The notes under the pieces were generated by a model. It was given only the letters and a program-made list of their open reading frames with translations, made no database searches and had not been told where the DNA came from. The translations under genes were made by a program, and so were the position numbers. From positions 1-9,158 of the forward strand of contig JAHEDF010000134.1 in assembly GCA_024641365.1 (NCBI GenBank): DNA of 9,158 nucleotides, in the 5' to 3' direction. Of the stretch, positions 301 to 9,158 are shown in pieces. The stretch comes from Planctomycetota bacterium. GTDB lineage: Bacteria; Planctomycetota; UBA11346. Numbering within the stretch: the stretch's first letter is position 1; every line of letters begins with the position of its first letter.

Positions 301-438
301 CCGGACGCCGAGTGACGGTTGGCGGGCAAAATAGTCGCGTAGCGACGCCCGCCAATTTTTTCCTAGCGCAGCGTAGAAAAAAAGTTCCCGACAAAGTCCG
401 TGGGGGTTTGGGGGCAAAGCCCCCGAAACAAAAAGCTA
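301..438 (+). repeat. Three-hairpin repeat, copy A
   Basis: Conserved lead CCGGACGCCGAG. Hairpin 1 (319-355) has outer arms TTGGCGGGC and GCCCGCCAA and an inner stem GTCGC/GCGAC, and is followed by six T. Hairpin 2 (about 356-383) is a T6/A7 stem with an inner CTA/TAG pairing. A linker carries CGACAAAG (389-396). Hairpin 3 (406-429) has arms GTTTGGGGGC and GCCCCC-G-AAAC. The right end supplies the TAG stop (complement of 436-438) of the TPR gene. Hairpin 1 plus T6 also looks like an intrinsic terminator for plus-strand transcription. A smaller stem (GGGC-AAC-GCCC, 287-297) precedes the unit. Confidence 0.85.
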
Positions 439-2274: not shown

Positions 2275-2311
2275 CCATAACGTTAACCCGACCGGGAGGG
2301 CAAAGCCCGAC

Positions 2312-2441
2312 CCGGACGCCGAGTGACGGTGGGCGGGCAAAATAGCGCGCAGCGCGCCCGCCCATTTTTTCCTAGCGGAGCGTAGAAAAAAAGCTCCCGA
2401 CAAAGTCCGTGGGGTTTGGGGCAACGCCCCGAAACAAATAA
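2312..2441 (+). repeat. Three-hairpin repeat, copy B
   Basis: Same order as copy A. Hairpin 1 has arms TGGGCGGGC/GCCCGCCCA with inner GCGC/GCGC, then T6. Hairpin 2 has a T6/A7 stem with loop GAG. CGACAAAG is at 2398-2405. Hairpin 3 is GTTTGGGGC-AAC-GCCCC-G-AAAC. It is followed directly by copy C. A short GGGC-AAA-GCCC stem (about 2298-2308) precedes it, as in block 1. Confidence 0.85.
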
Positions 2442-2571
2442 CCGGACGCCGAGTGACGGTGGGCGGGCAAAATAGCGCGCAGCGCGCCCGCCCATTTTTT
2501 GCAAGCGCAGCGCAGTAAAAAAAGCTCCCGACAAAGTCCGCGGGGTTTGGGGCAACGCCCCGAAACAAACA
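2442..2571 (+). repeat. Three-hairpin repeat, copy C (tandem to B)
   Basis: Tandem to copy B. Hairpin 1 is identical to B, but hairpin 2 differs (TTTTTTGCAAGCG against CGCAGTAAAAAAA). The linker CGACAAAG is at 2529-2536, and TCCGCGGGG replaces TCCGTGGGG. Variation between tandem neighbours suggests that individual hairpins were swapped or diverged separately. Confidence 0.85.
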
Positions 2572-2645
2572 GTCCCGACAAAGTCCGTGGGGGTTTGGGG
2601 GCAAAGCCCCCGAAACAAAAAGCCTAGGCCCCCGAAGCAAAAAGC
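2572..2645 (+). repeat. Partial copy D plus duplicated right-end fragment
   Basis: Only the right part is present: CGACAAAG (2576-2583) and the GGGGGC-AAA-GCCCCC hairpin. The 18-bp end at 2606-2623 is repeated at 2628-2645 with one change (GAAAC to GAAGC). CTAG lies between them. The second fragment lies within the coding region of the neighbouring minus-strand gene. Confidence 0.8.
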
Positions 2646-3343
2646 ATTTCAGACAACTTCCAAGAACCAGCGTCGGTCTTTTTGAACCACAAATTTGTTG
2701 ATGGCGTTTTAATTAAATACGCATCATCACCATATTTTTGTATAAAAACAATATTGTCATCAAATTTATCTCTGAGTTCTGACATATTAATACAATTGTT
2801 TTCGTACTGATCATCTGCCGTAAATGTTAACCGTTCTGGTAGGCAATAGGTTTCGAGCTGGGGTTCATTTGCGCTAATAATTCCTGCGCTTAATTCGTTG
2901 AACGACACGAGTAATTCTAATGGCAGGGTTATGTTTTCTTGATGGCTAGGAATGTAGTCAGCCGTTTTATTTTCTGAGGGCACGTTGTGATTGAGGGTTG
3001 TGGATTGCTGAGCAACACCAGCTTTGGGTTCCAATGCCACAGTTTCTTCGGTCGTTTCCATCGCTAATAAAGTTTCGTCGTCTAGAGTTGTTTCATGTGA
3101 ATGCTGATAATGACTTAACGCAGCAGGGGGCGCTACCTGTCTAAGCAGAGGTATGCGAACACGATGACGTGTGTGAGTAGGACGCATATCGTTTTTGCGA
3201 TATCGGCGCGATCCCAGCAAAACAGGCTCATGGAGGGCTTTAGCGACCGGAGCGTTCTTTTTAATAACCAGAACTTCATCGGTCTGTGCAGCACGATTAT
3301 CGCGGATTACTAAGCGAGGCGGGGTGATGCAGGCGCTGTTCAT
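2624..3343 (-). CDS. Orphan protein with repeat-derived C-terminus
   Basis: A 239-residue protein I do not recognise. There is no signal peptide and no membrane segment. Residues 8-70 are rich in Arg and Lys (for example RRYRKNDMR, 46-54). Residues 80-135 are acidic and Thr/Glu-rich, probably disordered. Residues 165-239 look folded, with DDNIVFIQKYGDDAYLIK (195-212) and NLWFKK (217-222) suggesting beta strands. The ATG at 3343 is preferred because GGAGGT lies five bases upstream; a further in-frame ATG at 3361 has a weaker site. The last residues, LFASGA, and the TAG stop are encoded by repeat fragment D, so the original C-terminus may have been replaced. Being Glu/Asp- and Arg-rich without export signal, it probably acts in the cytoplasm. 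No function is proposed. Confidence 0.65.
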   Translation of the reverse strand: MNSACITPPRLVIRDNRAAQTDEVLVIKKNAPVAKALHEPVLLGSRRYRKNDMRPTHTRHRVRIPLLRQVAPPAALSHYQHSHETTLDDETLLAMETTEETVALEPKAGVAQQSTTLNHNVPSENKTADYIPSHQENITLPLELLVSFNELSAGIISANEPQLETYCLPERLTFTADDQYENNCINMSELRDKFDDNIVFIQKYGDDAYLIKTPSTNLWFKKTDAGSWKLSEMLFASGA

Positions 3344-3691
3344 GGTGACCTCCATGACCATCTCTACGAGGCAGCTGTGATTTTCTTATTGGGTAATTCC
3401 ATTGATAATATTAGGGGCATGGTCATAAGGAGCAAAACCACGTAAAGCACAGGACTTAGTGCGAATCTTATGCACCACGATGAGCATGAGCAGCAATAGA
3501 AATCGGCGCTGTGGGTGTCCTCACTTTGCGAGAAGGCATTCGATCATGTCAGGTTATTGTAAGTAAAAACCACATAGCGAAAACGATTCGAGGATGAAAA
3601 TGTCAGCCTCGTGTCAGGGTTTTAAATAATGAGCATCGTGATTAGCTCGCATCGGTACGCAGATGCGATGAAACAAGGAGCGCTTGGAAAT
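3344..3691. other. Divergent intergenic region
   Basis: It lies between the orphan gene (-) and the sulfatase (+), so promoters for both should be here, but I find no confident -35/-10 pair. A small stem CGAGG/CCTCG lies near 3588-3610. The frame of the sulfatase stays open upstream to 3629, but that extension has no ribosome binding site and would bury the signal peptide. No three-hairpin repeat occurs here. Confidence 0.5.
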
Positions 3692-7140: not shown

Positions 7141-7150
7141 CCAGGCGAGC

Positions 7151-7333
7151 GGACGCCGAGTGGACGGTGGGCGGGTAAAATAGTCGCGTAGCGACGCCCG
7201 CCCATTTTTTCAAAGCGCAGCGCATGAAAAAAAGCTCCCGACAAAGTCCGTGGGGTTTGGGGCAAGCCCCGAAACAAAAAGTCCGTGGGAGCGCGAGGGC
7301 GTAAGCCCTCGAAACTAAACCCCCTCGAAACTA
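7151..7333 (+). repeat. Three-hairpin repeat, copy E, with double right end
   Basis: Hairpin 1 has arms TGGGCGGGT/GCCCGCCCA (a G-T pair at the inner base) and inner GTCGC/GCGAC as in copy A, then T6. Hairpin 2 is TTTTTTCA/TGAAAAAA. CGACAAAG is at 7239-7246. Two different right ends follow one another: the GTTTGGGG type (about 7255-7275) and a GTCCGTGGGAGCGC type with the stem CGAGGGC-GTAA-GCCCTCG (7295-7312). The tail CCTCGAAACTA is partly duplicated (7307-7317, 7323-7333). The last CTA is the complement of the TAG stop of the second sulfatase. Confidence 0.85.
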
Positions 7334-8653
7334 CAGACCCAGCTGTTTAAAAGCCCGAGCTAATTCCATGCGAATAACCGCACTCATCTCCGAATCATTT
7401 TCCACTTTAAATGGATATTGTTCCAAAGGATCTTGGGCCATGTGATATAAACGACCGTCGTTATATAATTTCCATGCTTGATTACGCACCCATTTTAAGC
7501 CGGAGCTTTTTCCGTCTGGTTCGACGCCACCAGGTTTTGGCAGCACCGCTTCTTCGCAATAAGAAAAAGTACGAGTGGACGGTTTATTACTCCGAATGCG
7601 ATCGGCAAAACTAATGCCGTCGATTGGGCGGTCTGCCGGTAATGCTGCACCAGCTAAATCTAAAAACGTTGGTAAGAAGTCAGAAAAATCTACCAAGTCA
7701 TTAATGACTTGTCCTGGCTGAATAACACCTGGCCAGTTGACGATCATAGGGACATTGGTGCCAGCATCAGTTAATTGCTTTTTCCCACCAGGAATTAATA
7801 ACCCATCACGTTTTGATACCACAGGTACGCTAATTAATTTATTACCTTCTGCACCAATAATGATGCTTGGCGGTGTTCCATTATCAGCGACAAAAATAAT
7901 AATTGTTTTTTCACGAAGTTTAAGCGCGTTTAAAGCCGTCACGAGTCGACCAACATTACGATCAGTTTCTGCAATCATTTCTGCATAACTATCATAGCGC
8001 CCAAAATGTCCGCGCGGCACGGGTTCTGCTAAGTCATCGGTGACTTCGTGAGCAAGTGCCATGGAATAATAGGCAATAAAAGGGCGATCTTTATTTGCCT
8101 TCATAAATTCTATCATGTAGTGCATATATAAGTCAGGGCCGTAGTGGCCGAGGGTGTCAGTACGAACGGCTCCATTGTGGTACACCATCGGCTCGTAATA
8201 GCGCGGACCTTCATGCCAACCGAATAAATTCCACTCCTGAAAACCTAAACGATGTGGGTGCTGCAAATCATCTTTCAATAAACATAATTGCCATTTACCA
8301 GCAATGCCGGTGGCATAGCCATGCTTTTGTAATAACGACGACCAGGTAAAAGGCTCTTCGCTCTTAGGGAAATCACCCCATGTCACCGGACCGTGACGAA
8401 ATGGATATTTTCCAGTCATGATGGTTATCCGCGATGGATGACAAACGGGCATGCTGTAAGCATGATTAAATTTCATACCCGTGCGCGCTAATTCATTGAG
8501 GTGCGGTGTCGGATAAGACTGCCCACCATAGCATTCTAATACTTCTTGCCCAATGTCGTCGGCAAGAATAAAAAGAATGTTTGGTTTCTCTGCGGTAAAC
8601 GATTGCTCAATAACGAGAGCGAAGATCAGCAAAGTAGTGAATAATTTATGCAT
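7331..8653 (-). CDS. Secreted sulfatase (type I, canonical CxPSR)
   Basis: A 440-residue sulfatase acting outside the cytoplasm on an unknown sulfate ester. Residues 1-20 form a signal peptide ending SFTA before EKPN. Catalytic features in order: metal-binding DD (32-33), the canonical formylglycine motif C71-H-P-S-R75 followed by MTGKYP, AGKWQL with K120, LAHE with H202, VADNGT (255-260, D257/N258), and [14 protein letters not shown] (289-302, K291 or K292). [15 protein letters not shown] (321-335) marks the C-terminal part. [12 protein letters not shown] (365-376) may help form the substrate pocket. Differing from the first sulfatase in motif and substrate-side loops, it probably has another specificity. 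The ATG at 8653 has no strong ribosome binding site. The TAG stop lies at the end of repeat copy E. Monocistronic in this window. Confidence 0.93.
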
Positions 8654-8819: not shown

Positions 8820-8955
8820 TTTTGTTTTGGGGCTCTGCCCCAAGCCCCGCGCTCCTTTGTCGCGTCTTTTTTTGCTGCACTTCGCTTACAAAAAATAATC
8901 GGGCGGTCGCTTTGCTCCCATTTTGCCCGATTACCGCCGCTCGGCGGACGTGATT
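8820..8955 (-). repeat. Diverged three-hairpin repeat, copy G, inverted
   Basis: Read on the minus strand, it keeps the order of copies A-F. A CCGC-CGA-GCGG stem replaces CGCCGAGTGACGG. Hairpin 1 has perfect arms AATCGGGC/GCCCGATT (8897-8904 and 8925-8932). A T6/A7 segment follows, then CGACAAAG (8855-8862) and hairpin 3 GGGGC/GCCCC (8829-8841). Primary sequence is strongly changed while the pairing is retained. Confidence 0.7.
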
Positions 8956-9004: not shown

Positions 9005-9033
9005 TGAGTTACGCAACACGAGCCGCAGGCTCG

Positions 9034-9158
9034 CGGACGCCGAGTGACGGTGGGCGGGCAAAATAGCGCGCAGCGCGCCCGCCCATTTTTTCCTAGCGGA
9101 GCGTAGAAAAAAAGCTCACGACAAAGTCCGTGGGAGCGCGAGGGCAGCGCCCACGAAA
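9034..9158 (+). repeat. Three-hairpin repeat, copy F (runs to window edge)
   Basis: Left part and hairpins 1 and 2 are the same as copy B. CGACAAAG is at 9119-9126. The right end is the GTCCGTGGGAGCGC type also seen in copy E, with stem GGGC-AGC-GCCC and an end CCCACGAAA at the edge. By analogy with A, D and E, a TAG stop of a minus-strand gene is expected just beyond. Confidence 0.85.

Follow-up and report, generated by a model that had tools for sequence, protein, structure and literature searches.

The described systems closest to the element reported here are the REP and BIME sequences, which are high-copy, extragenic, folded repeats with irregular hairpins (PMC2817692, PMC8266576, PMC3733652). 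REPs span 20–40 bp (PMC3733652), and those with a GTAG tag are recognized as single strands and with strand specificity (PMC2817692, PMC8266576, PMC3733652). The attC sites also fold, as the bottom strand behind a gene, and their unpaired bases are possible markers of which strand is which (PMC6393395). MITEs, BOX, RUP and ERIC are short, non-coding, mobile and intergenic, modular in build and sometimes clustered (in part from PMC10969869). Within the Planctomycetota there is Acido-Lenti-1 (RF01687), another high-copy palindromic repeat.

The element has features in common with all of these and departs from each. Whereas a REP is a single palindrome of 20–40 bp (PMC3733652), the element is about 140 bases long (range about 130–165), with a branched core of 99 positions, containing a three-way junction, and a further hairpin, hairpin 3. 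It has no invariant GTAG or CGTC motif, its hairpin 1 being preceded mostly by (C/T)GG, and, unlike REPs, it is placed one way behind genes. From attC it differs in its branched fold and in having no cassette arrays, no AAC/GTT boxes and no link to an integrase; from MITEs it differs in the strong covariation of that fold, with no terminal inverted repeats noticed. Acido-Lenti-1 consists of two short hairpins of unrelated sequence and is found in genomes without the element. By the tests made, the element belongs neither to the REPs nor to the attC sites. As a kind, it adds three things to what is seen in REP-like elements: a three-way junction, loops of the DNA type, and a position behind genes that is oriented one way. 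Among titles and the opening parts of abstracts in a paper library that covers a minority of subscription papers, no description of it was found, and this non-coding, mobile, high-copy, structured family is apparently new. Directly observed are a covarying fold, a high copy number, restriction to one class among the genomes searched, tandem arrays, two presence/absence sites and 3′-end-to-3′-end placement. Our main reading, to which we give a probability of about 60%, is that of a mobile REP-like element that acts as folded single-stranded DNA, is served by a trans-acting enzyme and is aimed at gene ends.

The window, by which we mean the whole stretch of DNA analysed, appears to be a complete metagenome contig, as its own proteins are listed on a contig of 9,158 bases. 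The sequence-only reading had counted seven copies, A to G, and a relic, H. The repeat family is real, and the arm sequences quoted for it are present in the window copies, but the count changes. With the covariance model R1, described below, six full copies are found; three other stretches hold only 3′ parts and have no R1 match at E ≤ 1e-4, so the count becomes six copies and three fragments, as follows.

301–430, plus strand: full copy, core 301–402, then hairpin 3; R1 86.4 bits
1789–1815, plus strand: candidate 3′ fragment with CGACAAAG and a stem resembling hairpin 3; seen in the sequence, without an R1 match
2312–2438, plus strand: full copy, core 2312–2411, hairpin 3 at 2418–2430, tail GAAACAAA; R1 96.0 bits
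2442–2571, plus strand: full copy, head to tail with the copy at 2312, core 2442–2542, then hairpin 3; R1 89.7 bits
2574–2618, plus strand: 3′ fragment, CGACAAAG and hairpin 3; repeat family D3
7149–7278, plus strand: full copy, core 7149–7252, then hairpin 3; R1 77.9 bits
7279–7312, plus strand: 3′ fragment with a second hairpin 3; repeat family D10
8826–8951, minus strand: full copy of a diverged subfamily, core 8848–8951, hairpin 3 below 8848; R1 74.1 bits
9033–9158, plus strand: full core 9033–9132 and a partial hairpin 3 at the contig end; R1 98.9 bits

The adjacent copies that had been read at 2312–2571 are indeed two full copies (cores 2312–2411 and 2442–2542), with a hairpin 3 behind each. 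What had been called copy G does carry the AATCGGGC arms, but it is a minus-strand copy (core 8848–8951) and is assigned to a diverged subfamily because of its 74 bits and its close sister in genome G212 of the same class (L097:1688–1793, 71 bits). Both contig ends fall inside repeats, and about 400 bases, which include a copy of Acido-Lenti-1 along with the first copy of the repeat, occur twice, at 1–430 and 2034–2440; the assembly of the contig therefore probably stopped at repeats. The two long copies differ in a short tandem run of TTCGCCC-like units, at about 215–260 and 2245–2272.

Six proteins are likely in the window: two sulfatases, one protein with a BNR domain and three without a Pfam match. 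The product of the minus-strand gene 436–1584 (382 amino acids) has two other relatives, at 52% and 32% identity, among the matches listed for the best 7995 candidates scored, and one of the two is named as a TPR protein. Acido-Lenti-1 matches lie at 150–194 and 2182–2226 on the plus strand and at 1993–2037 on the minus strand, two of them forming an inverted pair about 145 bases apart. This repeat occurs in 24 of 99 Planctomycetota genomes, where dozens of copies and an inverted paired arrangement are frequent, and looks more like REP doublets than like one small RNA gene.

From 5′ to 3′, the element runs from helix P0 through the internal loop CGCCGAG/CGACAAAG into helix P1, which encloses hairpins 1 and 2 in the three-way junction; the return strands of P1 and P0, hairpin 3 and an A-rich tail follow. 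An upstream hairpin precedes P0 in many copies. The parts of the core at 2312, all on the plus strand, are as follows.

2313–2317, plus strand: P0 5′ strand CGGAC, pairing with 2405–2409 (columns 2–6 with 102–106 of alignment A2)
2317–2323, plus strand: 5′ side of the internal loop, CGCCGAG, in which the outer C closes P0 and the inner G closes P1; invariant in alignments A1 and A2
2323–2327, plus strand: P1 5′ strand, pairing with 2394–2398; 3 of 5 pairs in this copy, covarying in relatives
2330–2364, plus strand: hairpin 1, with a one-sided A-rich bulge at 2339–2344 and a GCA loop (alignment and fold prediction)
2365–2392, plus strand: hairpin 2, with the T run and the A run as its outer arms (alignment)
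2398–2405, plus strand: internal loop 3′ strand CGACAAAG
2405–2409, plus strand: P0 3′ strand GTCCG (alignment A2)

Helices P0 and P1 were absent from the earlier parse, which was revised after relatives had been found. CGCCGAG and CGACAAAG, taken there for a lead and a linker, are conserved, but they lie opposite each other in a single internal loop, with P0 outside and P1 inside. The described order of T6, hairpin 2 and A7 names parts that are all present, though they make up one hairpin, T6 and A7 being its outer stem. The arms of hairpin 1 hold, and a one-sided bulge with the motif ANAAT, below a GNA loop, had gone unnoted. The unpaired motifs are near-fixed: among 148 distinct copies, CGCCGAG is exact in 120, CGACAAAG in 112, and ANAAT is present in 135.

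In the window itself the outer helices are less regular. The five plus-strand copies have P0 as CGGAC/GTCCG, and the minus-strand copy keeps 3 of 5 P0 pairs in frame. Read off the alignment, P1 is weak, with 3 of 5 pairs in copies 301, 2312, 2442 and 7149 and 4 of 5 in 9033 and 8848. The evidence for P0 and P1 comes from relatives. Fold prediction recovers hairpins 1 and 2 in the window copies and P0/P1 in part, and in some copies a predicted local hairpin, CGCC-GAGN-GGCG, competes with P0/P1. In the 123 of 150 copies with enough flank, the predicted DNA folding energy averages −8.1 kcal/mol for the 40 bases before the core, against −5.9 in controls, and −12.2 kcal/mol for the 50 bases after it, against −7.8. 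A likeness of AAAGTCCG to RNase P RNA was set aside, as its TCCG covaries.

The fold is kept while its letters change. A first alignment of 18 copies, six from the window and twelve relatives, was made by MAFFT without structure; in it, 89.1% of stem cells pair, against 35–44% when the partners are slid, 22 of 34 pairs have changed on both sides, and none of 500 shuffles reached its covariation score. Model R1 was built from this alignment and used in all later searches; one of these gave 199 matches in 97 sources. Among the best 150 of these (148 distinct), which were aligned by fitting to R1 and include many copies from the same genome, 94.9% of cells pair, against 29–44% when slid; 30 of 34 pairs show double changes, and the covariation score is 0.453, compared with 0.113 in shuffles. 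With one best copy from each of 18 genomes and the window (n = 19, also fitted to the model, a doubtful G210 row having been removed), 610 of 630 cells pair (96.8%) and both partners have changed in 30 of 34 pairs, with 155 double changes against 18–29 when slid. The bases that pair just outside the internal loop change together, as CGGA/TCCG, CGGG/CCCG, CGAC/GTCG, GCTGA/TCAGC and CAGA/TCTG, and so do those just inside it, as GGAC/GTCC, TGGC/GCCA, CGGC/GCCG, GGGT/ACCC and CCCT/AGGG. The hairpins and their compensatory changes are real, in agreement with the sequence-only claim that the arms change together.

That claim went further, to selection on a folded RNA or single-stranded DNA, and the covarying P0 and P1 together with the near-fixed unpaired motifs support this as well. 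The check proposed for it, covariation across genome-wide copies, was run with the model and shuffles, short of R-scape, and leaves the claim standing; since P0 and P1 covary and the unpaired motifs are near-fixed, recent duplication with random decay does not explain the copies. Another route to matched arms would need no selection on the fold at all: mobile palindromes spreading in MITE-like fashion, with arms kept alike by template switching, that is, quasipalindrome correction. The element is palindromic, tandemly amplified and mobile, and one-sided intermediates are near absent (pair 6–117 has 54 double changes and no single one in the best 150 matches), as such correction would predict. 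However, P0 and P1, at the base of the branched structure, covary like the hairpins although their strands lie about 65–90 bases apart; the internal loop and the bulge are near-fixed; and in the hairpin loop the middle base varies while G and A stay. We consider this route very unlikely.

If selection acts on the fold, it has to be asked in which nucleic acid. In the element's stems, G.T occurs in 53 of 4726 cells (1.1%) and A.C in 17; with two poorly aligned pairs added, the counts are 60 and 20 of 5010. In the tRNAs at the same loci (n = 76 of 91 found, the others having failed the pairing filter), G.T occupies 61 of 912 cells (6.7%) and A.C 4, so that G.T is six times rarer in the element. 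The loops are also informative. The loop of hairpin 1 is C(GNA)G in all but 4 of 148 copies (144), and its middle base is C in 59, A in 55, T in 22 and G in 8; outside the elements C(GNA)G makes up 69 of 503 C-G-closed triloops and the reverse, C(TNC)G, 37. In hairpin 2 the loop is C(GNA)G in 70 of 148 copies, and among the 28 C-G-closed loops of four bases, counted from listed loop types that cover 141 of the 148 copies, 16 are GNNA, 3 of these being GNRA, and none is UNCG. The group that discovered the DNA mini-hairpins reports extraordinary stability for those that combine a loop of the GNA or GNNA type with two or more G-C pairs (PMC4686876). The rarity of G.T relative to tRNAs and the stable-DNA type of the loops lead us to lean to DNA as the substance of the fold.

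The same counts suggest which strand folds. On the plus strand P1 has 28 G.T against 3 A.C, and at least three pairs in both P0 and P1 are predicted in 128 of 150 copies on the plus strand against 101 on the minus strand with RNA energies, and in 109 against 87 with DNA energies. G.T in excess of A.C and better recovery of P0/P1 both make the plus strand the likely folding strand.

Some of this speaks for RNA. G.T remains commoner than A.C (53 to 17), a pattern expected of RNA too, and R1 itself favours G-U; RNA energies predict the fold at least as well as DNA energies (128 against 109 of 150). A structured RNA could be an antisense or small RNA from the plus strand, or a 3′-end element that protects or ends the abutting mRNA; hairpin 3 lies directly behind stop codons, and REP hairpins can protect mRNA ends (PMC12306157). 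On the other side are the low G.T and the DNA-type loops just described, and, for an mRNA element, an asymmetry that favours the strand antisense to the gene and not the mRNA strand. In addition, no Rfam family matched, and by eye most relatives have no T run after the hairpins. We regard a structured RNA as unlikely and keep DNA as the preferred substance of the fold. A general role as terminator was set aside separately, as the T run that follows hairpin 1 in the window copies is, by eye, not present in most relatives. With Rfam 15, no family reached threshold on the element in the window, where Acido-Lenti-1 was the only family found elsewhere; eiav_FSE at 2542–2576 reached 19.2 bits, its gathering score being 40. 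In five related loci Rfam 15 gave tRNA and sub-threshold tRNA-like matches, all outside the element.

Relatives of the element were found in one class only. An exact-pattern scan matched one viral contig stretch and 12 genome contig stretches, all 13 without the element's flanks and judged to be chance, and the plasmid and phage collections gave no match; one chance pattern match, in a Pirellulales genome, served as the entry point to the phylum Planctomycetota. A DNA search with window positions 2290–2640 matched 8 of 199 Planctomycetota genomes, with true copies in four (G021, G186, G091 and G125). Three others (G157, G117 and G172) have only hairpin 3 in common and no R1 match, and the G210 match (E 0.002) was judged to be chance. 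With R1, 18 of 23 genomes of one class have the element; these 23 form the order of G021 and, as sampled, also its whole class. With at most 150 candidates scored per genome there are 642 matches: 140 in G215, 116 in G125, 88 in G021, 86 in G221, 64 in G216 and fewer in the others, three of which have a single match. Across the phylum, 294 sampled genomes were searched with stricter filters and 14 candidates scored per genome, so that weak relatives may be missed; 17 were positive, all in the same class. None of 200 Pseudomonadota genomes held the element by R1. Among the genomes searched, it is thus restricted to one class.

Copies often stand in tandem. Of the best 150 rows, 147 were placed, in 112 arrays: 82 single copies, 25 pairs and 5 triples. 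One long run is in G021 (L162, 8303–10746), where 16 consecutive copies follow at steps of 149–160 bases, with a last step of 213. Its early steps are of 149 bases and later ones alternate between about 149 and about 160, the second type having a longer hairpin 2 in the copy printed.

The position of the element relative to genes is one-sided. Gene calls came from a coding score made for this analysis, which found 4 of 6 likely window genes, and tRNA calls from ARAGORN; 30 of the 112 arrays overlap an ORF call, many of them probably spurious. On the 3′ side of the element the neighbour shows its own 3′ end in 74 of 102 cases, against 49 of 100 on the 5′ side and 52% for random gaps; with the ORF-overlapping arrays left out, the figures are 59 of 74 and 37 of 74. 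Among neighbours within 100 bases, the element's 3′ side faces a 3′ end, that of an opposite-strand gene, in 58 of 66 cases, and the 5′ side in 26 of 38; since close 5′ neighbours also mostly show a 3′ end, the bias may be due in part to the space available behind genes. In 47 of the 74 cases the facing 3′ end lies within 47 bases of the core end, approximately the length of hairpin 3. Nine of the 3′-side neighbours are tRNAs, and 7 of these have their 3′ end towards the element. ARAGORN also reports large tRNA arrays, of 23 tRNAs in G021 (L049, 9645–14360), 20 in G186 (L054) and 22 in G222 (L178), with element copies between the tRNAs.

The window has the same arrangement at three places. The 3′ end of the copy at 301–430 adjoins the stop of the minus-strand gene 436–1584, the fragment 2574–2618 adjoins the stop (2624) of the minus-strand ORF 2624–3361, and the next gene after the fragment 7279–7312, on the minus strand at 7331–8653, ends facing it. 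No gene stop is faced in this way by the minus-strand copy or by the copy at 9033, which the contig end cuts off. Abutted protein genes end in TAG in 26 of 54 cases, compared with 161 of 862 gene calls. In G125 the end common to two tandem copies reads CTAAACAG, and because both copies have this end, the element itself seems to supply the stop TAG there. Orientation shows no clear bias relative to GC skew (56 of 95), and hence no lagging-strand signal.

Comparison of orthologous sites among the fetched loci gave four candidate pairs, two of which are clear cases of presence against absence. In G219 (L195) two genes are separated by an element that follows a TAG stop directly, whereas in G171 (L193) the relatives of these genes almost touch; the alignment gaps are 302 and 81 bases. 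In G125 (L124) there are two copies where G221 (L142) has none, with gaps of 434 and 91 bases, the base-by-base alignment being clear on one side only. The third pair, G125 and G021, is too diverged to judge, and the fourth candidate consists of the tRNA arrays of G021 and G222. Presence and absence at orthologous sites is what a mobile element would leave, and loss in the relative is possible for the element-free sites. The element's ends are diffuse in four genomes, and both occupied/empty pairs are too diverged to fix the ends or a target duplication.

An element of this kind would need an enzyme, and two known kinds were considered. The element might be a diverged target of an enzyme already known to act on single strands, either an attC-like site for the integron integrases of this class or a composite REP moved by TnpA-REP (RAYT). 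As with attC, the strand that folds is the bottom one and stands behind a stop codon; integron integrases above the curated cut-off occur in 10 of 23 class genomes (L218–L227) and Y1_Tnp (PF01797) in 20 of 23. Hairpin 1 (CGGAT-ANAAT ... ATCCG) resembles the CGGATAA ... ATCCG forms among the enterobacterial REPs (PMC2817692), in which TnpA-REP needs the stem bulge (PMC8266576), a likeness that may be convergence. However, none of the 20 Y1_Tnp loci, one per positive genome and about 1.5 kb on each side, holds a copy, so that no RAYT gene flanked by inverted copies was found there, and G216 has 64 copies and no Y1_Tnp match, draft genomes being liable to lack genes. Nor is there a copy in any of 12 integrase-search loci, 10 above and 2 below the cut-off, within about 1.5 kb; the element occurs in 9 of 10 genomes with an integron integrase and in 9 of 13 without (Fisher p 0.34). 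No link to the integron integrase was seen in these counts. The core triplets of attC R boxes are AAC/GTT, and such triplets are absent among the invariant or nearly invariant columns of the element alignments, as is a GTAG head. A known enzyme acting on a diverged site is, in our estimate, very improbable.

We return to the main reading, a REP-like element, and propose the following. The plus strand would fold as P0, the CGCCGAG/CGACAAAG loop, P1, the junction of hairpin 1, with its ANAAT bulge and GNA loop, and hairpin 2, and then hairpin 3, and it would be as single-stranded DNA that this fold acts. Its internal loop and bulge would be read by a trans-acting protein, probably a transposase or recombinase that works on folded single strands, and insertion would be aimed at gene ends in one orientation, which makes the folding strand the bottom strand of the gene concerned. 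The mode can be likened to that of REP elements read by TnpA-REP, with a putative enzyme. A bolder version is that the element is a new single-stranded DNA recombination or insertion site, a three-way junction read through CGCCGAG/CGACAAAG, with the bottom strand behind genes and tRNAs, and independent of integron integrases and RAYTs; this version we hold to be quite unlikely.

It is rare for a natural DNA fold to show so much covariation that the sequence reveals it. Should this indeed be DNA, the 642 matches in 18 genomes provide several hundred natural variants of one single-stranded DNA structure, whose branch point, conserved loop and bulge would be a rich set for studying how proteins read folded DNA. 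The one-way placement behind genes and tRNAs across the class points to a novel targeting mechanism. On the practical side, copies lie at many contig ends, those of the window included.

Outside the class, loci L017 and L025 (G157), L018 (G117) and L021 (G172) hold other repeats that end in a like hairpin 3. Theirs reads GGGGG-TTC/TCC-GGGGGC-NNN-GCCCCC and stands behind a different stem with AAATCC; perhaps there is a wider set of Planctomycetota elements with a common hairpin-3 module.
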